36,536 nucleotides of DNA, taken from NCBI RefSeq assembly GCF_014596945.1, contig NZ_JACVXB010000007.1, positions 1-36,536 on the forward strand. The letters are read 5' to 3'. Numbering within the stretch: the first letter of the stretch is position 1; the number at the start of each line of letters is the position of its first letter. The stretch comes from Aestuariibaculum sediminum. Its GTDB lineage: Bacteria > Bacteroidota > Bacteroidia > Flavobacteriales > Flavobacteriaceae. Below, in pieces: positions 7,207 through 34,315 of the stretch. Below the pieces are notes generated by a model. That model saw only the letters and a program-made list of their open reading frames with translations. It did not search any database and was not told the DNA's origin. A program made the position numbers and the translations under genes.

Positions 7207-8430
7207 TTAATTTGACAACACCTCCTTAAGCTTCCCCATATCCTCACTTACCTTTTGATCCAATACTCTAGCATAAATTTGAGTAGTCGCAATTTTGGTA
7301 TGACCTAATAGCTTAGAAACTGTTTCTATTGGCACACCATTACTTAATGTAATTATCGTTGCAAACGTATGCCGAGCAATATGGAAAGTAAGATTCTTAT
7401 TGATTTTACATAAATCTGCGATTTCCTTTAAGTAACTATTCACCTTTTGATTCGATATCTTTGGAAATATACCTCCTGAACAGACCACTCTTGGGTGTTC
7501 TTTATACTTTTCTACCAATGCTTTTGCCTTTGGTAATAAAGGAACCCTTATAGATGTACTGGTCTTTTGACGCTCACTTATCACCCAATCATTACCATCA
7601 ATGCCTAACATAATTTGCTCTGGTGTTAAATCATGAATATCAATAAACGAGATTCCGGTATAACAACTAAACAAGAAAAGATCTCGAACAAGATTAAGCC
7701 GGTCTACTGATGAATTAAACTTCTCTAAGCTCATCAATTCCGTTTCGGAAAGATACTCCCTTCTCCTATTCTCAAAAGAGGTTTTAAACCTAACAAACGG
7801 ATCTTTATCTATCCATTCCATATGATAGGCCATGGTAACCATCTTTCTGAGTCTTTGAAGATGTTTCATAGCTGTATTATGGCTCATCTTTCTTTGATGA
7901 TCTTCTGGCTGATAGGATTTAATGAAGTATTCAAAATCTACAATAAAACCGTAACTTAATTCTCCAAGCTTCACATCTGTCGTAGCCAGTTTAATATCAA
8001 GGTACTTCTTCAAATACCCTTGAGTCACTTTATAATGTCTCAAGGTATGACTGGTTAATTGTTCTTTGGAAATTTCATTATGGTATTCAAATAATTCCAA
8101 AAGGGTTTTAAAATTTCTATCTTCACCCAGAAAGCGAGATTTTATCAGTTGAGCGGTAATTAATTTATCTTCACTTATTAAATCTTCATAAGATTGATAA
8201 ATTTTAGCTCTTACCTGATTTAAATATTTATTCAAGGCTTTAGCTTCTTGTTTACTTCCTTTAGCCTTTCCTTTGTTAGAATCCCAATTTGAGAGTGGAA
8301 TTCGTCGTTTCAAGCTAATATTAGCTCGTTTACCATCAACAGTAATTCTCGCATAAAGCGACACTTCTTTGTTTTTAATTCGTGAAGTATTAACCCAAAA
8401 CAAAAGGTTAAACGTAGAGCGTGTACTCAT
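7207..8430 (-). CDS. Tyrosine-type site-specific integrase (CTnDOT-like)
   Basis: A 407-residue phage-type integrase with the Bacteroidota arrangement: an N-terminal arm-binding domain (about 1-95, LYARITVDGKRANISL), a SAM-like core-binding domain (about 105-215) and a C-terminal catalytic domain. The catalytic residues visible are Lys289 in ERQKT, His350 and Arg353 in HIARHTFAT, His377 in LLGHT and Tyr386 in IYARV. The usual first Arg of TGLRxSE is replaced: the segment reads CYTGISFIDIHDL, with Ser at 261. The same substitution is known in CTnDOT IntDOT. The start codon faces a tRNA-Arg gene 235 bases away, the normal arrangement for an element integrated at a tRNA 3' end. No excisionase or transfer genes lie nearby. 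Confidence 0.93.
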   Translation of the reverse strand: MSTRSTFNLLFWVNTSRIKNKEVSLYARITVDGKRANISLKRRIPLSNWDSNKGKAKGSKQEAKALNKYLNQVRAKIYQSYEDLISEDKLITAQLIKSRFLGEDRNFKTLLELFEYHNEISKEQLTSHTLRHYKVTQGYLKKYLDIKLATTDVKLGELSYGFIVDFEYFIKSYQPEDHQRKMSHNTAMKHLQRLRKMVTMAYHMEWIDKDPFVRFKTSFENRRREYLSETELMSLEKFNSSVDRLNLVRDLFLFSCYTGISFIDIHDLTPEQIMLGIDGNDWVISERQKTSTSIRVPLLPKAKALVEKYKEHPRVVCSGGIFPKISNQKVNSYLKEIADLCKINKNLTFHIARHTFATIITLSNGVPIETVSKLLGHTKIATTQIYARVLDQKVSEDMGKLKEVLSN

Positions 8431-8511
8431 AATAATCGTCTTTTAGTTAAACATTTTTTTAAGACGAAAATCAAATCAACATTCTAAAAGTAAGCATTTT
8501 AAGTCGTAATT

Positions 8512-8560
8512 CGGTCAACACTTTTTGTGTTTTTCTAAACTGTTGACCGCGGTGTTGACA
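8512..8560. repeat. Inverted repeats upstream of the integrase, possible att/arm sites
   Basis: CGGTCAACA (8512-8520) is a perfect inverted match of TGTTGACCG (8541-8549) with 20 bases between, and a third copy GTGTTGAC (8552-8559) pairs with GTCAACAC (8514-8521). The group lies between the integrase start and the tRNA-Arg 3' end. Such clustered sites upstream of a tyrosine integrase gene are candidates for arm-type binding sites or for operators of the integrase promoter. Confidence 0.5.
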
Positions 8561-8606
8561 TTAAATTTCTTATCATTTCAATCAAATTAGAAGGTCTTAG
8601 AAAGAT

Positions 8607-8640
8607 AAAACCCTGTAAATCATAAGGATTACAGGGTTTT
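8607..8640. terminator. Bidirectional hairpin terminator after tRNA-Arg
   Basis: A perfect 12-bp stem (AAAACCCTGTAA at 8607-8618 with TTACAGGGTTTT at 8629-8640) encloses a 10-base loop. It lies 24 bases beyond the 3' end of the minus-strand tRNA gene and ends in a T-run on both strands, so it most likely terminates the tRNA transcript. Confidence 0.7.
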
Positions 8641-8664
8641 GAAAGTTTTTGTTTTACAACAAAG

Positions 8665-8738
8665 TGATCGCGACAGGATTCGAACCTGTGACCGTCTGCT
8701 TAGAAGGCAGATGCTCTATCCAGCTGAGCTACGCGACC
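8665..8738 (-). tRNA. tRNA-Arg (anticodon UCU)
   Basis: The minus strand from 8738 reads GGTCGCGTAGCTCAGCTGG, a complete acceptor and D arm. The anticodon stem-loop CTGCCTTCTAAGCAG carries TCT, the T arm contains GGTTCGAATCC, and the acceptor closes with CGCGATC plus discriminator A at 8665. No CCA is encoded. The length is 74 nt. A tyrosine integrase gene lies on its 3' side, so this is the likely attachment site of the left-hand island. Confidence 0.97.
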
Positions 8739-8944: not shown

Positions 8945-9577
8945 ATGATTACCGAACTTAAAGAAAATTATGGTTATCTCTTTGAAGATGCGCTTTTAAA
9001 TGAAATTAACAATGTAGGCACGTTCAAAGAAGTTCCAGAAGGCTATATGCTCATGGATATAGGTGATTATATAAAATCGATGCCATTGTTGGTAAGTGGT
9101 GCTGTAAAAATTTTGAGAGAGGATGACAAAGGCGACGAATTACTCCTCTACTTTATAGAACGTGGCGACACTTGCGCCATGACCTTATCCTGTTGCATGG
9201 GACAGAAAAAAAGTGAAATTCGAGCCGTTGCTGAAACCCCAACCAAACTTATTATGATCCCCGTTGAAAAAATGAGCGAATGGATGAGTAAATACAAAAG
9301 TTGGCAAAACTTTATTCTACAGAGTTATCACGACAGAATGACTGAACTTCTGGAGGCTATCGACTCTATCGCTTTCTTAAAAATGGACGAACGACTATTT
9401 AAATATCTAAAAGATAAAGCGATGGTAAACCGAAATGATGAAATACAGGTCACCCACCAAAACATTGCTTTCGATCTGCATACATCCCGTGTTGTTATTT
9501 CCCGTTTATTAAAATCCCTCGAAAATAAAGGTAAAATTATCTTAAACAGAAACAATATTAAAATTTTAGATTTATAA
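8945..9577 (+). CDS. Crp/Fnr-family transcriptional regulator
   Basis: A 210-residue regulator with an N-terminal cyclic-nucleotide-binding-type beta-roll (about 20-120) and a C-terminal winged helix. The HTH runs VTHQNIAFDLHTSRVVISRLLKSLENKG near 169-196, with TSRVVISRLLKSLE as recognition helix. The phosphate-binding cassette of cAMP receptors is absent; instead Cys77, Cys83 and Cys84 sit in GDTCAMTLSCCMG, where thiol chemistry or a metal could be sensed (inference). Directly downstream, four promoters carry GTAAC-N4-GTTAC palindromes, the half-site size and spacing expected for a Crp/Fnr dimer, and three lie in front of sulfur genes. It is therefore the best candidate for their activator. 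No such palindrome precedes this gene itself. Confidence 0.92.
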   Translation: MITELKENYGYLFEDALLNEINNVGTFKEVPEGYMLMDIGDYIKSMPLLVSGAVKILREDDKGDELLLYFIERGDTCAMTLSCCMGQKKSEIRAVAETPTKLIMIPVEKMSEWMSKYKSWQNFILQSYHDRMTELLEAIDSIAFLKMDERLFKYLKDKAMVNRNDEIQVTHQNIAFDLHTSRVVISRLLKSLENKGKIILNRNNIKILDL

Positions 9578-9580
9578 AGT

Positions 9581-9624
9581 GTAACCAATGTTACTGTGTG
9601 CTCCCGTTGCGTAACCTAGTTTTG
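9581..9624 (+). promoter_or_regulatory. Crp/Fnr-type operator and promoter of the TauE/SafE gene
   Basis: The operator is the perfect palindrome GTAAC-CAAT-GTTAC at 9581-9594. A TAGTTTTG element, matching TAnnTTTG, lies at 9617-9624. The operator centre is 29.5 bp before the first base of that element, placing it at about -41 of the expected start near 9628, the class II activation position. The leader to the ATG at 9642 is then only about 14 bases. Confidence 0.8.
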
Positions 9625-9641
9625 TGGCATAAATTAAAATT

Positions 9642-10439
9642 ATGACTATTATAGAAATTATAGGATTTACAGGGGCGCTATTAATTGGTATTGTTCTCGG
9701 GTTAGTTGGTGGAGGCGGGTCCATCTTAACAGTTCCGCTGCTAGTTTACCTTTTAGGGTTTAACCCGGTTGTAGCTACAGCATATTCATTATTTGTTGTA
9801 GGATCGTCTTCTGTGGTAGGTGTAGTACAAAAACACCGTAAAAAACTTGTCGACTTCAAAACGGGACTATCATTTTCATTCCCTTCATTCTTAGCCGTTT
9901 ATATTTCTAGGAGGTTTCTCGTTCCCGGCATTCCTGATTCCATTTTTACTCTCAATGGATATACGCTTACTAAAGATATGGCTATCATGGTGTTTTTTGC
10001 CATTATCATGTTTTTGGCCGCTACATCTATGATTAAAAACAAAAAAGAAACCGCCGAAATACATACAAAACAACCTTATTATAAAACTTTTATTCAAGGT
10101 TCTGTAATTGGTGTTATAACAGGTTTAATTGGTGCTGGCGGAGGCTTTTTATATGTTCCTGCTTTAGTACTTTGGGCAGGTTTATCAATGAAACGAGCCG
10201 TAGGAACCTCCCTAGTTATTGTTTCCCTGAATTCAATAATAGGATTTACAGGCGATTTACATACTCTAGATATCGACTGGACATTCCTATTATCATTTTC
10301 ATCTATTACCATCATAGGAATCTTACTTGGCGGTTATTTATCTAAGTATATCTCCAATAAAGGGTTAAAAAAGAGTTTCGGATGGTTTGTTCTCGTTATG
10401 GCCGTTTATATAATAATTAAAGAATTTTCACAACACTAA
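9642..10439 (+). CDS. Sulfite exporter TauE/SafE family membrane protein
   Basis: A 265-residue polytopic membrane protein with the two-repeat layout of the TauE/SafE family. Glycine-rich repeats GIVLGLVGGGGSILTVPLLVYLLG near residue 16 and GVITGLIGAGGGFLYVPALVL near 152 begin the two halves, and about eight hydrophobic segments are visible. Family members are thought to export sulfite, sulfoacetate or related organosulfur anions, or to move thiosulfate/sulfide inward; the substrate here is not determined. In Bacteroidota it is frequently next to an MBL-rhodanese gene, as here. It has its own Crp/Fnr-type promoter and is followed immediately by the next operator, so it is probably a separate but coregulated unit. 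Confidence 0.88.
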   Translation: MTIIEIIGFTGALLIGIVLGLVGGGGSILTVPLLVYLLGFNPVVATAYSLFVVGSSSVVGVVQKHRKKLVDFKTGLSFSFPSFLAVYISRRFLVPGIPDSIFTLNGYTLTKDMAIMVFFAIIMFLAATSMIKNKKETAEIHTKQPYYKTFIQGSVIGVITGLIGAGGGFLYVPALVLWAGLSMKRAVGTSLVIVSLNSIIGFTGDLHTLDIDWTFLLSFSSITIIGILLGGYLSKYISNKGLKKSFGWFVLVMAVYIIIKEFSQH

Positions 10440-10443
10440 AAAT

Positions 10444-10487
10444 GTAACTTATGTTACGCACTAAACTTTAAAAATACCTTAATTTTA
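10444..10487 (+). promoter_or_regulatory. Crp/Fnr-type operator and promoter of the CstB-like gene
   Basis: Palindrome GTAAC-TTAT-GTTAC at 10444-10457 and TAATTTTA (TAnnTTTG-like) at 10480-10487. The centre-to-element distance is 29.5 bp, identical to the other three sites. The expected transcript start is near 10491, 17 bases before the ATG. Confidence 0.78.
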
Positions 10488-10507
10488 CAGTAAATAATGA
10501 TAAGATT

Positions 10508-11917
10508 ATGAAGATAGAACAAATATATACAGGATGTTTAGCACAAGGCGCTTATTACATCGAAAGTGAGGGCGAAGTTGCCATTATAGATCCATTAAGA
10601 GAGGTTTCTCCTTATGTTAAAAAAGCTCAGGACAATAACGCTAAGATTAAATACATTTTTGAAACGCATTTCCATGCCGATTTTGTTAGCGGGCACGTTA
10701 CGCTTTCAAAACAAACAGGAGCTCCTATCGTTTATGGACCGCTCGCAAACCCAGATTTCGATGCAATTATAGCTACCGATGGGCAGGAATTTAAACTAGG
10801 TAAAATTACCATTGTGGCACTACACACACCTGGGCACACCATGGAAAGTACCACGTACCTGTTAAAAGATGAAAACGGTAAAAACCACGCTATTTTTAGT
10901 GGAGACACCTTATTTTTAGGTGATGTAGGGCGTCCGGATTTAGCTCAAAAAGCTGCCGATATGACTCAAGAACAATTAGCTGGTTTACTTTATGAAAGCT
11001 TACGTTCTAAAATTATGACCCTGGCCGACGATGTCATTGTATATCCTGCACACGGAGCTGGTTCTGCTTGTGGCAAAAACCTTAGTAAGCAAACGGTAGG
11101 CACTATTGGCGAGCAAAAAGAAACCAATTATGCCTTACGTGCCGATATGACTAAAGAAGAGTTTATCGAGGAAGTTACCGATGGACTATTGCCACCGCCA
11201 CAATACTTTCCGTTAAATGTTAAAATGAATAAAGAAGGTTACGACGATATAGAAGATGTTTTAGAACGTGGTACCCGACCTTTAGAACCAAAAGAATTTG
11301 AGGCCATTGCAAACGAAACAGGCGCTGTTATTTTAGATGTTCGTCATCAAAATGAGTTTGTAAAAGGACACATCCCTAGATCCATATTTATTGGAATCGA
11401 TGGTAGTTTTGCGCCTTGGGTAGGAGCCTTAATCGCCGATGTAAAACAACCTATATTAATTGTGGCCAACGAAGGGCGCGAAGAAGAAACAATTATACGT
11501 TTATCTCGTGTAGGTTTCGACAATACTTTGGGTTATTTGAAAGGTGGATTCGATGCCTGGAAACAACATGGATTTGAATATGACACCATTTCATCTATTT
11601 CGGCCGATGAATTAAAAAATACTTTAGAAAAAGAAGAAGTACTGGTTTTTGATGTTAGAAAAGATGGAGAATTTAAATCGGAACATGTTTTAAATGCGCA
11701 TCATACATCATTAGATTATTTAAACGATTATTTATCTGAATTCCCTGAAGACAAACCGTTTTATGTACACTGTGCAGGCGGATACCGCTCCGTAATAGCA
11801 GCTTCTATTTTAAAAAGTAGAGGCATTCACAACTTAGTTGATATTACAGGTGGTTTTGCTGCAATAAAAGAAGCAGGCATACCTGTTACGGAATATGTTT
11901 GTCCGTCTACATTATAA
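10508..11917 (+). CDS. Persulfide dioxygenase-rhodanese fusion (CstB-like MBL-fold protein)
   Basis: A 469-residue three-part protein. Residues 1 to about 250 form a metallo-beta-lactamase fold with THFHADFVSGH (His54, His56, Asp58), HTPGHTMEST and FSGDTLFLGDVGRPD, the iron site of ETHE1-type persulfide dioxygenases. A first rhodanese-like domain (about 265-360) has ILDVRHQNEFVKGHIP but lacks the active-site Cys (VANEGREEET). A second rhodanese (about 365-469) has HCAGGYRS with Cys422. This order, dioxygenase, inactive rhodanese, active rhodanese, is that of Staphylococcus aureus CstB, which turns low-molecular-weight persulfides into thiosulfate and sulfite. It likely handles cytoplasmic persulfides from sulfide oxidation, and sulfite made could leave by the adjacent TauE/SafE protein. 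Confidence 0.92.
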   Translation: MKIEQIYTGCLAQGAYYIESEGEVAIIDPLREVSPYVKKAQDNNAKIKYIFETHFHADFVSGHVTLSKQTGAPIVYGPLANPDFDAIIATDGQEFKLGKITIVALHTPGHTMESTTYLLKDENGKNHAIFSGDTLFLGDVGRPDLAQKAADMTQEQLAGLLYESLRSKIMTLADDVIVYPAHGAGSACGKNLSKQTVGTIGEQKETNYALRADMTKEEFIEEVTDGLLPPPQYFPLNVKMNKEGYDDIEDVLERGTRPLEPKEFEAIANETGAVILDVRHQNEFVKGHIPRSIFIGIDGSFAPWVGALIADVKQPILIVANEGREEETIIRLSRVGFDNTLGYLKGGFDAWKQHGFEYDTISSISADELKNTLEKEEVLVFDVRKDGEFKSEHVLNAHHTSLDYLNDYLSEFPEDKPFYVHCAGGYRSVIAASILKSRGIHNLVDITGGFAAIKEAGIPVTEYVCPSTL

Positions 11918-11940
11918 AAACAAAAATGTTATTTATGTAA

Positions 11941-11970
11941 AAAAAAGAGTGGTTTAAGCCACTCTTTTTT
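11941..11970 (+). terminator. Intrinsic terminator after the CstB-like gene
   Basis: A perfect 12-bp stem (AAAAAAGAGTGG, 11941-11952, with CCACTCTTTTTT, 11959-11970) and a 6-base loop, ending in seven T. It separates the CstB-like gene from the rhodanese-thioredoxin-methyltransferase group, whose operator starts at 11972, directly after it. Confidence 0.85.
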
Positions 11971-11971
11971 T

Positions 11972-12015
11972 GTAACCAAAGTTACTTCACAAATCCTTTT
12001 AGCAACGTAACTTTA
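11972..12015 (+). promoter_or_regulatory. Crp/Fnr-type operator and promoter of the rhodanese operon
   Basis: Palindrome GTAAC-CAAA-GTTAC at 11972-11985 and TAACTTTA at 12008-12015, again with 29.5 bp from palindrome centre to element. The predicted start is near 12019, about 22 bases before the ATG at 12041. Confidence 0.78.
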
Positions 12016-12040
12016 TAGTATTAATAAAATATAATTGACC

Positions 12041-12373
12041 ATGTCTCTATTATCATTCCTTTTTGGAACAAAAAACGACAAAGTAACTGTTATATCTGCA
12101 GCCGATTTTAAACAACAAATTGAAAATAAAAACGTTCAGTTAATTGATGTCAGAACTGCGGGTGAATTTAAATCTGGTGCTATTAAAAATGCTACAAACA
12201 TCGATTATTTGTCTGGTAATTTCATATCAAAATGTGATTCCTTAAACAAAGACAAACCAGTATATCTATACTGCAGGAGCGGTGCTCGAAGTGCACGTGC
12301 TGCTAAAAAATTATCACGGGCAGGGTTCTCTAAAATTTATGATTTAAAGGGTGGCATAAGTAGTTATAAATAG
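12041..12373 (+). CDS. Single-domain rhodanese-like sulfurtransferase
   Basis: A 110-residue rhodanese domain protein with LIDVRTAGEFKSGAIKNATNID near residue 34 and the active-site loop CRSGARS with Cys78, followed by KKLSRAGFSKIYDLKGG. Such proteins carry sulfane sulfur on the Cys and pass it between glutathione-like thiols, thioredoxin and other acceptors. The N-terminus (SLLSFLFG) is hydrophobic but short. An in-frame TTG lies two codons upstream at 12035, but the ATG at 12041 fits the predicted promoter and normal usage. It is followed by a thioredoxin gene after 78 bases, a plausible partner that reduces the persulfidated Cys. Confidence 0.9.
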   Translation: MSLLSFLFGTKNDKVTVISAADFKQQIENKNVQLIDVRTAGEFKSGAIKNATNIDYLSGNFISKCDSLNKDKPVYLYCRSGARSARAAKKLSRAGFSKIYDLKGGISSYK

Positions 12374-12451
12374 ATAAAGAAAACTATACTAACAACGAAA
12401 AAAATTGGAAATTATAAATACTAAGGCGGTAAACTATCAAAATAAATCAAA

Positions 12452-12748
12452 ATGAGTAATTTTTCAGAAGTAATAAATCAGGACAAACCAGTTTTGGTCG
12501 ATTTTTTTGCCGAATGGTGCGGGCCATGTAAAATGATGAGCCCTGTTTTAAAACAAGTAAAAGACGAATTAAAAGAACAGGTTGTAATTATAAAAATTGA
12601 TGTAGATAAAAATCAGGTCTTAGCCTCGAAATTCCAGGTAAGAGGAGTTCCTACATTAATGCTATTTAAAAATGGTAATCAACTTTGGCGTCAATCAGGA
12701 GTTTTACAAAAAAATGAACTGGTCTCACTCATAAAATCTTATACATAA
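12452..12748 (+). CDS. Thioredoxin
   Basis: A 98-residue thioredoxin with the active site WCGPCK (Cys23 and Cys26), the cis-Pro motif GVPTLMLFKNG near residue 71 and no signal peptide, so it is cytoplasmic. It lies between a rhodanese gene and a methyltransferase gene with no terminator, so it is most likely in the same transcript. It could reduce rhodanese or protein persulfides and release sulfide. It is short and specialised by context rather than an obvious general housekeeping thioredoxin. Confidence 0.93.
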   Translation: MSNFSEVINQDKPVLVDFFAEWCGPCKMMSPVLKQVKDELKEQVVIIKIDVDKNQVLASKFQVRGVPTLMLFKNGNQLWRQSGVLQKNELVSLIKSYT

Positions 12749-12751
12749 TTT

Positions 12752-13333
12752 ATGGATTTATCGGAGTCGTATTGGGAAAATCGATACAAAACCCATGAAA
12801 CAGGTTGGGATATTGGACATATCTCCACCCCTATTAAAACCTATGTCGATCAACTTACCAATAAAGAACTAAAAATTTTGATTCCCGGTGCAGGTAATGC
12901 TTATGAAGCCGAATATTTGTTTAAATCGGGCTTTACCAATGTTTTTGTGATTGACATTTCAAAAACGGCATTAAATAATTTAAAGAAACGTGTCCCGAAT
13001 TTCCCAGATCAACAGATGCTTCACGGGAATTTTTTCGATTTAAATGATACTTTCGATTTAATGATTGAACAAACTTTTTTTTGCGCTATTAATCCCAGCC
13101 TTCGCCCTAAGTATGCCGAAAAGGCAAGTCATATTTTAAAGCCTAATGGGAAACTAATTGGCTTACTATTTAACGTTCCTTTGAATAAAACGCATCCGCC
13201 ATTTGGAGGTTGCAAAAGTGAATATATTAAGTATTTCCAGCCGTATTTTAAAATTAAAACATTGGATTTGTGCTACAACTCTATTGAACCAAGAGCAAAC
13301 AAAGAACTATTTGGAATTCTGAATGTTAAATAA
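12752..13333 (+). CDS. TPMT-family SAM-dependent thiol methyltransferase
   Basis: A 193-residue class I methyltransferase of the thiopurine S-methyltransferase type. It begins YWENRYKTHETGWDIGH, has the SAM loop LIPGAGNAYEAEYL near residue 42, VIDIS near 70, HGNFFDL near 90 and THPPFGG near 148, all as expected for this family. Such proteins methylate thiols, selenium and tellurium compounds, and relatives have been linked to H2S methylation. The start codon follows the thioredoxin stop by three bases, so translation is likely coupled. In this context, methylation of sulfide or small thiols as a detoxification step is a reasonable inference. Confidence 0.85.
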   Translation: MDLSESYWENRYKTHETGWDIGHISTPIKTYVDQLTNKELKILIPGAGNAYEAEYLFKSGFTNVFVIDISKTALNNLKKRVPNFPDQQMLHGNFFDLNDTFDLMIEQTFFCAINPSLRPKYAEKASHILKPNGKLIGLLFNVPLNKTHPPFGGCKSEYIKYFQPYFKIKTLDLCYNSIEPRANKELFGILNVK

Positions 13334-13352
13334 AAGTAAAAACCGTAATTAT

Positions 13353-13396
13353 GTAACATTTATTACAAATTATGTTGATTAAACTTATTATTTTTG
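13353..13396 (+). promoter_or_regulatory. Crp/Fnr-type operator and promoter ahead of cydA
   Basis: GTAAC-ATTT-ATTAC at 13353-13366, with one arm changed from GTTAC to ATTAC, and TATTTTTG, an exact TAnnTTTG, at 13389-13396. The centre-to-element distance is 29.5 bp, as at the three other sites. Unlike those, the expected start near 13400 is about 139 bases from the next ATG, and an intrinsic terminator lies in between. Confidence 0.75.
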
Positions 13397-13399
13397 CAG

Positions 13400-13476
13400 C
13401 CGATTACAGAAAATGTAAACTTCCATATTAAGATTAATAGCCCGAAAAAGCTTTCTTGAAAAAGAAGGCTTTTTTT
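13400..13476 (+). ncRNA. Putative short terminated RNA upstream of cydA
   Basis: From the predicted start at about 13400 to the end of the terminator T-run at 13476 the transcript would be about 77 nt. It contains no reading frame beyond a two-codon ATG-TAA. It could be a free-standing small RNA under Crp/Fnr control, comparable in logic only to FnrS of enterobacteria, or the attenuated leader of cydAB. Both readings are inference from promoter and terminator positions. Confidence 0.45.
13445..13476 (+). terminator. Intrinsic terminator with GAAA tetraloop in the cydA leader
   Basis: A 13-bp stem pairs 13445-13457 with 13462-13474 (one G-U pair, otherwise perfect) around the loop GAAA at 13458-13461, and runs into seven T at 13470-13476. 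It sits about 45 bases after the start of the predicted transcript and 62 bases before the cydA ATG. Confidence 0.8.
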
Positions 13477-13494
13477 CGTTTTTAGTGCCATTTA

Positions 13495-13517
13495 TTGTTT
13501 TTCGTATCTTATTTTTG
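13495..13517 (+). promoter_or_regulatory. Possible second promoter of cydAB
   Basis: TATTTTTG at 13510-13517 matches TAnnTTTG exactly and lies after the leader terminator, giving a start near 13522 and a short leader to the cydA ATG at 13539. An upstream TTG at 13495-13497 is slightly too close for the usual spacing, so this promoter is only tentative. Confidence 0.4.
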
Positions 13518-13538: not shown

Positions 13539-14870
13539 ATGGAAGACATGCTTTTCTACGATAGGATGCAATTCGCATTTACTATCACCTTTCACTACCT
13601 GTTTCCTCAATTAACCATGGGACTTTCTTTAATTATAGTCTGGTTTAAATGGAAATTTTTAAGAACTAAAATTGAAACGTATAATGACGCAGCTAAATTC
13701 TGGATGAAAATATTTGCCATTAATTTTGCCATGGGTGTAGTTACAGGTATCCCTATGGAATTTCAATTTGGTACTAACTGGGCTAAATTTTCAGAACTTA
13801 CAGGTGGTATTATCGGGCAAACATTGGCTATGGAAGGAATGTTCTCATTTTTCTTAGAATCTTCATTTTTAGGCCTCTTTCTTTTTGGTGAAAAGCTTTT
13901 AGGACACAAACTTCATTTCGTTACCGGATTTTTGGTGTTTCTCGGTTCTTGGGCCAGTGGTTATTTAATTATTGCCACCCACTCATGGATGCAGCATCCT
14001 GTAGGATATGAAATTTTAGAAAATGGCAAATTTGTTCTTAATAACTTTGGAGCATTATTCTCTAACCCTTGGTTATTGCCTTCGTATTTTCACAATCAAC
14101 TGGCGTCTGTAATAACGGCTTCTTTTGTTATTTCGGCCGTTGGCGCTTTTTATGTATTAAATGATAAGCATAGCATATTTGGAAAATTATTTTTGAAATC
14201 CGGAGTTATATTCGGTCTGATATCAAGTATTTTAGTCGCATTTCCAACAGGAGATTTGGTTGCTAAAAATGTAGTAAAACATCAGCCAGTAACCTTCGCT
14301 GCGATGGAAGGCATATTTGAAACAGAAGACGGTGGCAGTGAAATTGTTTTAATTGGACAACCGAATATCTTGGAGAAAAAATTAGACAATAAAATTGCCG
14401 TTCCCAATATTTTAAGTTTTTTAACCTATCAGGAATGGGATGCCGAGATTAAAGGTTTAAATGAATTCGATTCGAATATATATCCTACTAATATTCCGGG
14501 ACTCTATTATGCGTATCATATTATGGTTGGATTGGGTACCATTTTTATAGGTTTAATGTTGTTGGCTGCGGTGCAGTTATTAAGAAAAAAACTTTTTCAA
14601 ACGAAATGGATTTTGTGGGCCTTACTATTTATGGCGCCTTTTCCTTACATAGCCAATACAACAGGCTGGTATACCGCCGAACTTGGTAGACAGCCTTGGT
14701 TGGTATATAATTTACTGCGAACTAGCGAAGGTATTTCCCCAACAGTTTCTTCTGGTAATACGCTATTTACCTTACTCGGCTTTGTAGGCTTATATTTATT
14801 ACTTGGCCTCTTATTTTTAATACTTGTTGGAAAAATTATTTATAAAGGTCCTCAACCAAAAAAATACTAA
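13539..14870 (+). CDS. cydA: Cytochrome bd oxidase subunit I
   Basis: A 443-residue membrane protein of the cytochrome bd quinol oxidase subunit I family, with about nine hydrophobic segments. His19 in FTITFHYLFPQLTMG matches the heme-ligand His19 of the E. coli protein. The motifs HSWMQHPVGYE and TGWYTAELGRQPWLVYNLLRT are intact. The length is shorter than E. coli CydA (about 520) because the quinol-binding loop is short, a common form outside Proteobacteria. It reduces O2 with quinol without pumping protons. Bd oxidases resist sulfide, which fits its position in a sulfide-related regulon. cydB follows after two bases. Confidence 0.97.
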   Translation: MEDMLFYDRMQFAFTITFHYLFPQLTMGLSLIIVWFKWKFLRTKIETYNDAAKFWMKIFAINFAMGVVTGIPMEFQFGTNWAKFSELTGGIIGQTLAMEGMFSFFLESSFLGLFLFGEKLLGHKLHFVTGFLVFLGSWASGYLIIATHSWMQHPVGYEILENGKFVLNNFGALFSNPWLLPSYFHNQLASVITASFVISAVGAFYVLNDKHSIFGKLFLKSGVIFGLISSILVAFPTGDLVAKNVVKHQPVTFAAMEGIFETEDGGSEIVLIGQPNILEKKLDNKIAVPNILSFLTYQEWDAEIKGLNEFDSNIYPTNIPGLYYAYHIMVGLGTIFIGLMLLAAVQLLRKKLFQTKWILWALLFMAPFPYIANTTGWYTAELGRQPWLVYNLLRTSEGISPTVSSGNTLFTLLGFVGLYLLLGLLFLILVGKIIYKGPQPKKY

Positions 14871-14872
14871 TT

Positions 14873-15949
14873 ATGGAATTATTCTGGTATATCGTATTAA
14901 TGACTATGTTGACCGTTTATGTTATTCTGGATGGTTACGACTTTGGCGCAGGTATTGTACATTTGTTTTTTGCCAAAAAAGAAAAAGACAAAAAAGCCAT
15001 TACCAACGCAATTGGCCCCTTTTGGGACGCCAATGAGGTTTGGTTAATTGCCTCTGGAGGTGTTCTTTTTTTCGCTTTTCCTACGCTCTATGCAGCATCT
15101 TTTAGCGGATTTTATTTACCGCTCATTATGATATTATGGTTACTTATATTCAGAGCCATTGGTTTAGAACTACGTGGACAAATACATAACAGTATTTGGG
15201 AAACCATTTGGGATAAAGCTTTTGGAATTGCCAGTTTACTATTAGCTTTATTTTTTGGTATTGCTTTAGGCAATGTGGTACGTGGGGTTAACCTAGGCAT
15301 GGTTACAAATGGCGTTCCTGTACATGAATCTCATTATTTTTTTCTGCCACTTTGGAATCCAACATTCAGCCCTACTACCGAACATTTAGGCATCATAGAT
15401 TGGTTTACCATTTTACTTGGTATTATAGGTGTAGTTGCCTTAACTATTCATGGTGCAAACTGGATTATATTTAAAACGAATTCTGATTTAAATGATAAAT
15501 TAAAACGAATCGTTTTCAGATTAAATTTTGCGCTTTTAGGATTAGTTGTTATTTCTCTTTTGGTTTGGCATATTATTGAACCTAAACCTTTTCATAATTT
15601 TATAAAAACCCCTTGGTTGTGGATTTTTCCTTTCATTACTTTTACAGGATTATTCGGGTTGTTTTTTATAAAACGCTTTAAAAAAGACGGACAAGGGTTT
15701 ATTTTTTCTGCATTGTTTCTGTTCGGTGGGATTACTACAACGGTAGCGTCAATTTTTCCTAAACTATTACCTTCAACTAATACTATAAATCCTGATTTAA
15801 CCATCTATAATATGGCAGCAGATGATTACGGCTTATCAGTTGGAGTAAATTGGTTTATTGTAGCGATTATTTTAGTAATTATATACTTTACCATTCAGTA
15901 TAAAGTATTTAAAGGAAAAATGGATAATGTAGGCTACGGTGAGCACTAG
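14873..15949 (+). CDS. cydB: Cytochrome bd oxidase subunit II
   Basis: A 358-residue polytopic partner of CydA. The N-terminal VILDGYDFGAGIVHLFF, GPFWDANEVWLIASGGVLFFAFP and FRAIGLELR motifs are the family signature. ADDYGLSVGVNWFIVAIILV lies near the end. It has the normal length for subunit II. The start codon lies two bases after the cydA stop, so the two are one operon. I see no cydX-like small gene after it and no cydDC exporter genes within the window. Confidence 0.97.
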   Translation: MELFWYIVLMTMLTVYVILDGYDFGAGIVHLFFAKKEKDKKAITNAIGPFWDANEVWLIASGGVLFFAFPTLYAASFSGFYLPLIMILWLLIFRAIGLELRGQIHNSIWETIWDKAFGIASLLLALFFGIALGNVVRGVNLGMVTNGVPVHESHYFFLPLWNPTFSPTTEHLGIIDWFTILLGIIGVVALTIHGANWIIFKTNSDLNDKLKRIVFRLNFALLGLVVISLLVWHIIEPKPFHNFIKTPWLWIFPFITFTGLFGLFFIKRFKKDGQGFIFSALFLFGGITTTVASIFPKLLPSTNTINPDLTIYNMAADDYGLSVGVNWFIVAIILVIIYFTIQYKVFKGKMDNVGYGEH

Positions 15950-30199: not shown

Positions 30200-33100
30200 A
30201 TGACTTTTAAGCAATTATTATCTTATAAAAACTATTTATTCTCAATAGTATTTTTATGTTTAACCTGCTTCACTACAGCACAGAATCATATTAACTTTAA
30301 ACCAATTGCGCCTGTAGTAAATAATAAACCAATCTTTGTAAGTAAGACTGTTCAGGATAAATTTGGTCAAATTTGGATGGTGCACAGAGGAGGTCTATTA
30401 ATTCATGATGGTTATAATTTTAGACCCATTACGAATAAAAACATTTTCAAAACCGAGAATGAGCGCATATCGGATATTGTCGTATGCGAGAAAAAAGACA
30501 TTTGGATTATTTCGAATACAGGTTCTTTGCTATATTTTGACATTAATAGCGGGCGTTTTAAAAACAAAAATTCGATTGTAAACAACAAACGTATTAAAAC
30601 AATATTTAATAATAATAATATTTTGTGGTTTGCTACATATAAGGGAGAAATTTTTCGGCACGAAGGCAATTCGACAGATAGTATTACTCAAATAACAAAC
30701 AATAGCTCAATTGTTAAAGACATAAAAAGTTTGGCTCTTACTACACCTAACAACTTATTTATTGGTACAGAAAAAGGTAAAATTTTTAATTATAACTTAA
30801 ATACTAAAAATTGTAAAGAAATAGTTGGACTATTTACCGATTATCCTGGTAACATTATTTTAACCTCCGACAAAAATAATAGACTATGGATTGGCACTGA
30901 AACCTATGGTATTTTTGTTTACGATAGCGACAAAGAAAAATTTATACATGATGATCTATTCTACTCAGAAAATTATGGTGTAAACAAACAAATGTTTTTA
31001 ACTCTTTATAATGATAGTGATGGATATGTTTGGGGAGGAACTGATGGTGGTGGACTATATAAAATGGACCCCGAAACGGGAAAGATTGAATTATTTTTCA
31101 AGGAAGACTCTAACGAATTTTCTTTAGGAAGTAACACCATTTTAGATATTAATGAAGATAGCCATAAAAACCTTTGGATTTGTACTAATTATGGAAAAAT
31201 ATCTGTATTACCAAATGTAGATAATAATATTAGATATCATGAAGGTTCTGCAAATCATACACCACAACGAATTCTAAGTATTTATAAAAGTTCGAAAGAT
31301 ATATTGTGGATTGGCACTGATGGCTCTGGACTAACCAAAGTTAGCTTTCTACCTTCTGGAGTTTCTAAAGAAAAACAATACTTTAACAACGTAGCGATTA
31401 ACCGTGGTTTTTATATCCAATCCATTACCGAAGATAAAAATCAAAACATATGGTTTGGAACTTATCGAAACGGCTTATGGTTTCATAACACAAAACTCAA
31501 TACATTTGAAAAAATAAATATTGTCAACCCGAGAAATCAAGAAGCATCAGATATCAGAACTGTCTTTACAGATTCAAAAGGTCGTATTTGGGCTGGGACT
31601 AATATTTCTGTAGTTGTTTTTGATGCAAACAAAAAGCTTCTCGCTACTTTTGAAAACAATAGACATGGCTTAAAAGGTGTAATTGCCGAAAGCTTTGTTG
31701 AAGATGACACTGAAAACATTTGGCTAAGCTTTTTTAATGGCGGACTATTTAAATTCCATGAAGACCATACCAATTTACAATCTTCATCGTTTTCTGATAT
31801 TCCTTTTTTAACCACCAACGATAGTAAAGAAAAGACATCAGAAGTAAAATCGATTGAGCTTGGAGAAAATGGAACACTTTGGCTCATAGATAATTTAAGC
31901 AACTTGATTAAGTTTGACACCAATTCTAAAACCTTCAAAATTTATGATAATATACAGCCATTCAAAGATGTTAGCTTGGCTTCCATTATTAAACAAGATA
32001 ATGACAATTTATGGCTAAGTTCTAATAACGGTATATTTCATTTAAACCTAAAAAGCAATAATATAAGATCGTATTACAGTACCGACGGATTACAAGGAAA
32101 TACTTTTTTGACTCGATGTGTGTTCAAAGACAAAGACGGCACTTTGTATTTTGGTGGTCTCAATGGGTTAAATTATTTCAATCCAACTAAAATCAGAAAA
32201 AAGGAATCTACTCCTAAACTATATATTAACACTATTGAAATACTTAATCAACCCATTGATCAACTTATTCCTGAACAAAGTAACCTAAATGTTTATAATA
32301 TGGAAAACTTAGATTTAAAATCAGACCAATCTTCGTTTTCTTTTAAATTTTCAGCAATCGACAATGTTCTGGACCCCAAATTTCATTATTCCTATCGCCT
32401 TAAAGGTTTTAACAATAAATGGGTAAATAGTGGAGTGGAACGAATAGCAACTTACACTAATATTCCACACGGAAAATATGTTTTTGAAGTAAAAGCTGGA
32501 ACAAAATCGGAAAATTGGAATATTCCAATGAAACAAATTACAGTAAATATAGCGCCTCCATTTTGGCAAAGTTCAATTGCTTATATACTATATTTTTTAC
32601 TTTATGGATTATTCATTTACGCATTAAGATTATGGTACAAATTGCGAAATAAATTATTGATAGAAAAAATTAATCATAAGAAAGAAAATGAACTTCATGA
32701 TCTAAAAATGAACTTTTTTGCCAAAATGTCGCATGAAATTCAAACGCCTATAACCCTAATATTAGGACCGCTTGAGGATATGATCAAGCGATCGGCAGAC
32801 AATGGCAACTTACTTTTAAATCAGCGATTAAAAATTATAGAAAATAACAGCAAACGCCTTTCAAAAATTGCCAGAGAACTTACCCTGATTAGAAATAAAG
32901 AATTGAATGAGCTAAAACTGTTGGTTAACAAGAATAATCTTTACAAACATATTGACGAAATATCACTCTCATTCAAAGAATTAGCTCGAAAAAAACGCAT
33001 AGATTTCGCTATTAATTGCCCAAAAAACTTACATACTGCTTGGTACGATAAAGAAAAAATAGAACATGTAATTTATAACCTGCTATCAAATGCTTTCAAA

Positions 33101-34315
33101 TTTACACCAAAGGAAGGGAATGTTCAGTTAAGTGTTATCCCCATCGACTCTAAAAAGCAAATAAAACTATCGGTTTCCGATACTGGATCGGGAATTCCAA
33201 AAGAAGAATTAGAACTCATTTTTGATTTATTTTATCAATCCAGAACGAATAAAAAAAATAAAGGTTCAGGTATTGGCTTAGCCTTAACTAAGGAGTTAGT
33301 AGATTTACATAAAGGAACGATTGAAGTAGAATCTTCGCCCGTGCAAGGAACAGTTTTCACCTTCACCTTACCTATTACAAAGGACGCTTACAACGAATCG
33401 GAATTAATTATAACCGATAATGATAACGAAGAATTAAATGAACAAGAGGAAACAGAACATGAAAACCAATTACAAAAATCGGCCAAAGATCTCTCTAAGA
33501 AAACTATTTTAATCGTTGAAGACAATTTAGATTTACAAGCGTTCCTTAAAGAACTATTAGTTCAAGAATATAATATTTTATTGGCAGAAAATGGCGCCGA
33601 GGGTTACCATTATGCCAAAAGTAATTTTCCCGATTTAATTTTAAGTGATATCATGATGCCAAAAATGGATGGTATCGAGATGTGCATGATGCTGCAGGAA
33701 GACCCTTTAACAAAGCATATACCTGTAGTCATGCTTACCGCAAAAAATTCAACGAATGCAAAGATTTCCGGATTAAAATCGGGCGCCATAGAATATATCA
33801 ACAAGCCTTTTAATACTAATGAGTTACTTTTAAAAATAAAAAACATCATATCTTCTAAGGAGCATATCATTTCAAAATACAGAAAAGAGATAATTACAAG
33901 CCCCGATATAGATACAGAAAAAACTCAGGACGAAATTTTTCTTGAGAATATGACCAATATTATAAATGCCAAATTAAATGATGAAGGATTTAAAATTGAA
34001 GATTTAGCAGAATCACTAAACATGAGTTATTCGAGCCTGTACAGAAAGTGTCAGGCACTCACCGGAAAAAGTTTAGTAGATTACATTCGATTAATCCGAT
34101 TAAAACGTGCGGCTATTTTAATTACAAAATACGGTTATACCATTTCAGAATCGGCGTTCGCTGTTGGTTTTAACGACCCTAAATACTTTTCAAAATGTTT
34201 TAAAAAACAATATGAAAAAAGCCCAAAAGAATTTGCTAAAGAAGCAGAAAAAATAGGTGTCGACAATTATTTGAAAAAACACAATCTGGAGCATTTTAGC
34301 TCAAGTGTGAACTAA
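30200..34315 (+). CDS. Hybrid two-component system sensor-regulator (HTCS)
   Basis: A 1371-residue single-protein signalling system. An N-terminal signal peptide is followed by a periplasmic region of two-component regulator propeller repeats (about 45-700, recurring IWIGT/LWFAT/IWFGT segments), a Y_Y_Y domain (about 730-785) and a membrane segment (about 790-812). The cytoplasmic part has HisKA with His845 in MSHEIQTPITLI, an HATPase domain (NLLSNAFKFTP, DTGSGIP, GSGIGLAL), a receiver with Asp1150 in LSDIMMPKMDG, and an AraC-type DNA-binding domain (about 1255-1355, AESLNMSYSSLYRKCQ, VGFNDPKYFSKCFKKQY). It senses a glycan fragment in the periplasm and activates the adjacent SusCD locus. It is transcribed divergently from the GH109-like gene. 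Confidence 0.96.
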   Translation: MTFKQLLSYKNYLFSIVFLCLTCFTTAQNHINFKPIAPVVNNKPIFVSKTVQDKFGQIWMVHRGGLLIHDGYNFRPITNKNIFKTENERISDIVVCEKKDIWIISNTGSLLYFDINSGRFKNKNSIVNNKRIKTIFNNNNILWFATYKGEIFRHEGNSTDSITQITNNSSIVKDIKSLALTTPNNLFIGTEKGKIFNYNLNTKNCKEIVGLFTDYPGNIILTSDKNNRLWIGTETYGIFVYDSDKEKFIHDDLFYSENYGVNKQMFLTLYNDSDGYVWGGTDGGGLYKMDPETGKIELFFKEDSNEFSLGSNTILDINEDSHKNLWICTNYGKISVLPNVDNNIRYHEGSANHTPQRILSIYKSSKDILWIGTDGSGLTKVSFLPSGVSKEKQYFNNVAINRGFYIQSITEDKNQNIWFGTYRNGLWFHNTKLNTFEKINIVNPRNQEASDIRTVFTDSKGRIWAGTNISVVVFDANKKLLATFENNRHGLKGVIAESFVEDDTENIWLSFFNGGLFKFHEDHTNLQSSSFSDIPFLTTNDSKEKTSEVKSIELGENGTLWLIDNLSNLIKFDTNSKTFKIYDNIQPFKDVSLASIIKQDNDNLWLSSNNGIFHLNLKSNNIRSYYSTDGLQGNTFLTRCVFKDKDGTLYFGGLNGLNYFNPTKIRKKESTPKLYINTIEILNQPIDQLIPEQSNLNVYNMENLDLKSDQSSFSFKFSAIDNVLDPKFHYSYRLKGFNNKWVNSGVERIATYTNIPHGKYVFEVKAGTKSENWNIPMKQITVNIAPPFWQSSIAYILYFLLYGLFIYALRLWYKLRNKLLIEKINHKKENELHDLKMNFFAKMSHEIQTPITLILGPLEDMIKRSADNGNLLLNQRLKIIENNSKRLSKIARELTLIRNKELNELKLLVNKNNLYKHIDEISLSFKELARKKRIDFAINCPKNLHTAWYDKEKIEHVIYNLLSNAFKFTPKEGNVQLSVIPIDSKKQIKLSVSDTGSGIPKEELELIFDLFYQSRTNKKNKGSGIGLALTKELVDLHKGTIEVESSPVQGTVFTFTLPITKDAYNESELIITDNDNEELNEQEETEHENQLQKSAKDLSKKTILIVEDNLDLQAFLKELLVQEYNILLAENGAEGYHYAKSNFPDLILSDIMMPKMDGIEMCMMLQEDPLTKHIPVVMLTAKNSTNAKISGLKSGAIEYINKPFNTNELLLKIKNIISSKEHIISKYRKEIITSPDIDTEKTQDEIFLENMTNIINAKLNDEGFKIEDLAESLNMSYSSLYRKCQALTGKSLVDYIRLIRLKRAAILITKYGYTISESAFAVGFNDPKYFSKCFKKQYEKSPKEFAKEAEKIGVDNYLKKHNLEHFSSSVN

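Follow-up and report, generated by a model that had tools for sequence, protein, structure and literature searches.

We analyzed a 36,536-nucleotide stretch of Aestuariibaculum sediminum DNA (contig NZ_JACVXB010000007.1, positions 1 to 36,536; hereafter the window), in which the gene of a Crp/Fnr-family regulator is followed by four copies of the palindrome GTAAC-N4-GTTAC, each at the same distance from a predicted promoter. The combination of this regulator gene with fixed-distance operators before sulfide genes recurs in many marine flavobacteria and points to an undescribed sulfur-stress control circuit. As judged from sequence comparisons, the regulator and the operators very probably control these genes. 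The complete proposal, in which the regulator binds the palindrome at -41.5 and, in response to a reactive sulfur signal, serves as class II activator for a sulfide/persulfide regulon, is on balance the probable one.

Operators and promoter geometry

Three exact palindromes and one with a single mismatch were found between positions 9581 and 13396, each followed on the forward strand by a TAnnTTTG or TAnnTTTA box; no strand was assigned to the palindromes. Operator 1 (GTAACCAATGTTAC, 9581..9594) precedes the box TAGTTTTG (9617..9624; predicted +1 at 9629), operator 2 (GTAACTTATGTTAC, 10444..10457) the box TAATTTTA (10480..10487; +1 at 10492), operator 3 (GTAACCAAAGTTAC, 11972..11985) the box TAACTTTA (12008..12015; +1 at 12020) and operator 4, the copy with the mismatch (GTAACATTTATTAC, 13353..13366), the box TATTTTTG (13389..13396; +1 at 13401). 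The spacer between palindrome and box is 22 bp at all four sites. In the promoter map of Flavobacterium johnsoniae, from which the consensus of the box was taken, the first T of the -7 element TAnnTTTG lies at -12 (PMC6847099). When this T is counted as -12, all four palindrome centres fall at -41.5 of the predicted starts, operator 1 being so placed in the predicted tauE promoter, and tauE, pdo and rhd, the first three genes, have predicted leaders of 13, 16 and 21 nt. The position -41.5 is the classical one for class II activation. On predicted transcript starts, the four sites thus have the arrangement of class II Crp-type promoters, namely an operator centred at -41.5 and a fixed distance to the -7/-10 element. 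The preliminary description had located the four palindromes and boxes correctly, and the single promoter geometry at about -41, the class II position, that it proposed agrees with these values and with the comparison of relatives below.

A terminator-like hairpin with a 14-bp stem (11940..11971, forward strand) was observed 3' of the dioxygenase gene, and its T-run ends at the first G of operator 3 without a gap (11940-11985). It folds with -19.3 kcal/mol and a z-score of -6.0 (operator 3 was included in the folded stretch) and is absent from the list produced by a terminator pattern scan. Since the hairpin stands flush before operator 3, it supports operator 3 as an independent promoter.

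Frequency in the genome and conservation in relatives

The exact palindrome alone occurs at six places genome-wide, as often as a reversed control pattern (six), and in view of these equal counts the palindrome alone was rejected as evidence. Allowing up to two mismatches brought no enrichment within the window either (17 versus 13.8 expected). When TAnnTTTG at 22 bp was also required and at most one mismatch was allowed, four places were found in the 4.04 Mb genome, which are these four operators, whereas such composite sites averaged 0.20 per genome, with never more than 2, in an order-2 Markov simulation (window statistics, 40 genomes of 4.04 Mb). This is in line with the earlier statement that repetition of one exact distance is unlikely by chance. 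Loose composite matching was also rejected, as the genome counts with up to three mismatches (39/34) did not exceed those of the control (43/53).

For the comparison with relatives, 199 Flavobacteriaceae genomes were searched for the palindrome with TAnnTTTG 10 to 34 bp behind it, and a match was found in 138 of them. Among the 150 matches listed, which are fewer than the search total, the spacing was 22 bp in 117, 21 bp in 9 and 23 bp in 6, with at most three at any other value. In 80 named loci around regulator orthologues, 192 exact palindromes were found versus 0-4 for each of seven permuted palindromes. With both orientations of each palindrome counted, TAnnTTTG stood 22 bp away in 96 cases, and no other offset between 0 and 60 was seen more than four times. 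A search of 296 genomes of the phylum yielded 53 composite sites in 26 genomes and no control matches. The palindromes, whose absence from relatives had been named as a point that would speak against the circuit, are therefore conserved, and so is their fixed distance to TAnnTTTG; in related Flavobacteriaceae they track the Crp/Fnr gene and lie before the sulfur genes. The regulon had been called local, which describes the A. sediminum genome with its four places but not the relatives, in which sites also lie far from the regulator.

Chance, or the copying of one piece of promoter DNA between genes, is hardly credible as the origin of the sites. The equal counts of palindrome and control in this genome would agree with it. 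The four composite sites against 0.20 simulated, the palindrome counts in the 80 loci and the 53 sites in the phylum do not, conservation in relatives already contradicts it, and copying is opposed by spacers that differ in sequence while their length is kept.

The 22-bp spacers show little sequence conservation, the best positions being a G at the second base (half of the sites) and an A at the sixth (61 %); thus their length, not their sequence, is what is kept. No -33 element was seen in the spacers, and F. johnsoniae promoters likewise show little of one (PMC6847099). A bound activator that touches RNA polymerase would need such a constant length. Class II activation is accordingly moderately supported, and we consider it likely.

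The opposite mode was also considered, in which a repressor covers the promoter and is released from the DNA when modified, like sensors of the CstR and SqrR types. CstR and SqrR are repressors. Both are among the persulfide sensors of sulfur-oxidation genes (PMC11211675), and the operator occupies the stretch in which a -33 element would be expected. However, an exact 22-bp distance with a poorly conserved spacer fits polymerase contact, whereas a repressor site would tolerate shifts. With the operators also at the classical class II position, repression appears unlikely and activation is the mode that we infer.

Target genes

All the predicted targets behind the first three operators are encoded on the forward strand. 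They comprise a TauE/SafE-family exporter (9642..10439; Pfam PF01925), a persulfide dioxygenase (PDO)-like protein of the metallo-beta-lactamase (MBL) fold with two rhodanese domains and CstB-like architecture (10508..11917; PF00753 and two PF00581 stretches), and an operon of a single-domain rhodanese as first gene (12041..12373; PF00581), a thioredoxin (12452..12748; PF00085, with NCBIfam TIGR01068 above cut-off) and a TPMT-like S-methyltransferase (12752..13333; PF05724). The dioxygenase matched the PDB entries 3tp9 (E-value 8e-70), 3r2u (5e-52; residues 3-453), which we take to be CstB, and ETHE1 4chl (1e-16); the matches to 3tp9 and 3r2u span most of the protein. Its MBL dioxygenase domain is followed by two rhodanese domains, the order of the CstB type.

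When an operator (at most one mismatch) with its box was sought upstream of each gene in the relatives' loci, it was found before 48/63 TauE, 45/69 PDO and 22/49 rhodanese genes, compared with 27/684 other open reading frames (ORFs). The earlier link of the operators to sulfide and persulfide genes therefore persists in relatives. The remaining genes rarely carry such a site (thioredoxin 1/28, TPMT 0/24, cydA 1/11, cydB 0/8), and autoregulation of crp was discarded as only 7/84 crp genes have one. A total of 178 sites with a box was obtained. Homologues of window genes, crp included, follow 127 of them (TauE 48, PDO 45, rhodanese 25, crp 7, CydA 1 and thioredoxin 1), 35 lie before other ORFs and 16 have no assigned gene. 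The ORFs behind the 35 sites form 11 groups, and one representative was scanned for nine of these. Representatives related to sulfur or redox functions account for 19/35 sites: SQR-like (7), peroxiredoxin (3), cytochrome c-like (3), NrfD/Fe-S (3), YgaP-like transmembrane (2) and Sulf_transp (1) proteins. The SQR-like target reached 233 bits with the NCBIfam model for type III SQR, short of the cut-off of 525.

Three loci (L130, L131 and L180) have no TauE gene after the regulator. In these, operator and box precede a 538-aa Fe-S/NrfD protein (that of L131 was scanned), with ORFs of about 960-970 and 572-576 aa behind it. This gene set suggests that a polysulfide-reductase-like complex belongs to the regulon.

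The Crp/Fnr regulator

The regulator gene (8945..9577, forward strand) encodes 210 aa with a cyclic-nucleotide-binding fold and an HTH_Crp_2 domain. Scores of 37.2 bits for PF00027 (cut-off 27.5) and 32.2 bits for PF13545 (cut-off 27) place the protein in the Crp/Fnr superfamily and confirm the Crp/Fnr gene that had been described directly upstream of the operators. Its AlphaFold2 (AF2) monomer model has the Crp fold (mean predicted local distance difference test score, pLDDT, 84.5), and Foldseek matched it to 3dv8, CRP and NtcA, the listed matches having TM-scores of about 0.5-0.65. Cys77, Cys83 and Cys84 are invariant in alignments of 22 and 34 sequences, window protein included. They cluster at a short helix (78-84) of the model, around which a pLDDT of 64-69 is too weak for cysteine distances; by alignment to NtcA, this is in the effector-binding cassette, at the site that cAMP occupies in Crp and 2-oxoglutarate in NtcA.

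Homologues of the regulator (E-value at most 1e-30) were found in 254/299 family genomes. Sites and regulator were then compared in counts made by hand from tables and submitted to Fisher tests, whose values overstate independence because genomes and loci share ancestry. Within the family, a match at a spacing of 10-34 occurred in 135/166 genomes with the regulator and in 3/33 without it. In the phylum, sites were carried by 20/23 genomes in which a homologue scored 250 bits or more, a cut-off chosen once the data had been seen, compared with 6/273 others. Genus g127 (17 genomes) showed the same division, with sites in 4/4 genomes with a strong homologue and in 1/13 with a weak homologue alone. 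From these sequence comparisons, the link between regulator, operator and regulon is strongly supported, and we infer that the regulator binds the operators directly.

In the recognition helix (TSRVVISR), R-V stands in place of R180-E181 of CRP. The position of CRP Glu181 is Val in the window protein and in 143/157 other distinct homologues and Glu in the remaining 14. With the window left out, a site lies within 1.4 kb of 102/143 distinct Val-type regulators and 2/14 Glu-type ones. To see whether Glu-type homologues use a changed operator, palindromes at the corresponding position were sought in 13 loci of the Glu type and 6 of the Val type. One unrelated candidate was obtained among the Glu type, at L209, and the usual operator word was present at L183 and L292, so that no changed operator emerged. 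As proof that regulator and operator form a pair, the recognition-helix code was weakened by one locus (L176), where the family's Val is replaced by Glu and sites are still carried, which means that Val is not required.

Operator 4 and cytochrome bd

Operator 4 had been taken for the promoter of cydAB, the cytochrome bd oxidase genes (13539..15949, forward strand; PF01654 and PF02322), and this assignment is not supported in this strain. A strong intrinsic terminator (13444..13475, forward strand) lies between operator 4 and cydA, and cydA has a proximal -7-like box of its own (TATTTTTG, 13510..13517, forward strand) with no operator 36 bp upstream. In sister genomes the palindrome of operator 4 is kept (L102 and L103) or has one further mismatch (L104), and the -7 box at 22 bp is lost in all three. 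A promoter at operator 4 would mostly yield a transcript of about 80 nt (13397-13480); a stretch with the terminator is kept in the same three sister genomes. Control of cydAB through operator 4 is thus not clearly indicated in this strain, where its membership of the regulon is doubtful.

Other genera differ from this strain. Among 23 other close cydA orthologues (L213-L235), nine, in nine other genera, have an operator with up to two mismatches and a box at 22 bp, and eight of these sites are 62-77 bp before the start codon. Six permuted palindromes gave 0/23; GTTAC-N4-GTAAC gave 5/23 and is itself two mismatches from the operator, so the cydA count at two mismatches is less secure. None of six more distant cydA homologues (L236-L241) had an operator with a box at 22 bp. 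Membership of cydAB in the regulon is thus plausible in the family and probable in several other genera.

Proposed mechanism

We propose that reactive sulfur persulfidates or internally cross-links the cluster of Cys77, Cys83 and Cys84, that the Crp/Fnr protein (8945-9577) binds the operators at -41.5 of primary-sigma TAnnTTTG promoters, and that the bound protein would activate the TauE exporter, the CstB-like persulfide dioxygenase and the rhodanese-thioredoxin-methyltransferase operon. The signal is deduced from the content of the targets and the position of the cysteines; that reactive sulfur is sensed through these three residues has about an even chance of being right. Apart from operator 4 as the cydAB promoter, the earlier interpretation is retained here in its operators, geometry, class II position, sulfur genes and link to the regulator.

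The strongest competitor of reactive sulfur is an oxygen or redox signal. The regulator would then be a factor similar to FNR, with an Fe-S cluster or a disulfide at its cysteines, and low oxygen or thiol oxidation would induce the sulfur genes and cydAB. The three clustered, conserved cysteines would suit such a factor, as would the cydA operator in nine other genera and the peroxiredoxin and Fe-S/NrfD targets. However, the cysteines of FNR are arranged in an N-terminal motif and those of the window protein are in the effector cassette, the core targets (TauE, PDO and rhodanese) serve persulfide handling, and the curated model of FNR, a 4Fe-4S oxygen sensor, gave 17.3 bits against a cut-off of 228 (NF008365). 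We therefore regard an FNR-like factor as not very likely.

Several observations weigh against the proposed regulon of a reactive-sulfur activator. With free spacing, the reversed control also matched in 54/199 family genomes (hand count), compared with 138 for the palindrome, and six genomes of the phylum have sites without a strong homologue. Among distinct Val-type regulators, 41/143 have no site within 1.4 kb, although some of these loci are short, and the Glu-type regulator of L176 still has sites. The cysteine triad is also present in seven Glu-type homologues, two of which adjoin TauE, PDO or rhodanese genes, so the triad is not tied solely to these genes. Among the 35 sites before ORFs without a window homologue, 16 precede groups that have no clear link to sulfur or redox functions or were unscanned (outer-membrane efflux 6, HMA domain 4, DUF983 3 and two unscanned groups 3), and a further 16 of the 178 sites have no assigned gene. 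Operator 4 does not lead directly to cydA. Finally, the operator word equals that of HcpR2, a Crp/Fnr regulator discussed below, and the signal cannot be told from the word alone.

Neighbouring features

Just upstream of crp, a tyrosine recombinase with phage-integrase domains (7207-8430, minus strand) is located beside tRNA-Arg(tct) (8664-8738, minus strand), and positions 7207-8738 are likely the integration site of a mobile element. Between 19000 and 34400, ORFs on the minus strand resemble by eye SusC/SusD outer-membrane uptake proteins, and one of 1371 aa at 30200-34315 looks like a hybrid sensor-regulator.

Comparison with known systems

FisR, SqrR, CstR, OxyR and CsoR have been named as the regulators that detect sulfane sulfur and turn on genes for sulfur oxidation (PMC11211675), and none of these five is of the Crp/Fnr family. 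No published Crp/Fnr regulon with TauE, PDO and rhodanese was found in Bacteroidota by a search outside of which most subscription journals lay, so that its absence from the literature is unproven. If the proposal is true, it would provide marine Flavobacteriaceae with a regulator of the sulfide response whose operator and promoter code can be predicted. As the fixed 22-bp distance is shared by many genera, native promoters could serve to test class II activation in Bacteroidota.

In the class II promoters of Escherichia coli CRP the palindrome is centred at -41.5, as it is here. The half-site and the core promoter (TAnnTTTG here) differ, cysteines occupy the cAMP cassette in the window protein, and activation is predicted here. 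The CstR-cst operon of Staphylococcus aureus contains TauE, CstB and rhodanese-type genes and is thus comparable in its targets, a TauE-like transporter and an MBL dioxygenase that carries two rhodanese domains. CstR itself belongs to the CsoR family, whereas a Crp/Fnr protein with sites in activator geometry is found here. The persulfide sensors CstR, SqrR and FisR have the fold of CsoR, of ArsR or of a sigma54 activator, and the Pfam scan of the window regulator gave Crp-type domains alone.

The best PDB match by both sequence and fold was the Crp/Fnr structure 3dv8 of Eubacterium rectale, in which cysteines one and two of the cluster are present (DxCxxxxxSC), the third is Ile, and the recognition helix contains Glu. 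A Crp-like protein of A. baumannii also combines the Crp fold with a cysteine that becomes persulfidated after sulfide; it closely resembles E. coli Crp (50 % identity) and Vfr (54 %) and does not represent a dedicated sulfide regulon (PMC7315123). We tentatively suggest, with rather less confidence than in the mechanism above, a Bacteroidota subfamily of Crp/Fnr proteins in which the nucleotide pocket would have become a three-cysteine sensor of reactive sulfur, acting as a class II activator of a dedicated sulfide/persulfide regulon and reusing the operator word of HcpR2.

HcpR2, a Crp/Fnr regulator of nitrosative stress, has the published operator motif GTAACnnnnGTTAC (PMC1274295, Rodionov et al. 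2005), and the window sites carry the same word. This identity is an argument for an HcpR2-type regulator here, which would respond to nitric oxide or nitrite through a heme effector and have the sulfur genes as secondary targets. In addition, a heme-binding HcpR is known in B. thetaiotaomicron, where it is needed for hcp transcription (PMC13370916). Both proteins replace Glu181 of CRP, and G3 of the site is kept, with Arg at the position of CRP R180 in the window protein; most HcpR2 proteins have Pro at 181 (PMC1274295), however, and Val is found here, together with a conserved cysteine triad in the effector cassette. The hcp gene (PF03063) was absent in 49/49 family genomes searched, A. sediminum included, while the same search found PF03063 in 3/80 genomes overall, all of one other family of the order, and in 5/14 control genomes. 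HcpR2 is defined by hcp, and the regulator was therefore not filed as HcpR2. The commonest targets are sulfide/persulfide genes, and an HcpR2-type regulator is altogether quite improbable. On sequence grounds the window regulator shares the operator word of HcpR2 but not its regulon, and one operator word would thus serve two Crp/Fnr branches with different regulons.

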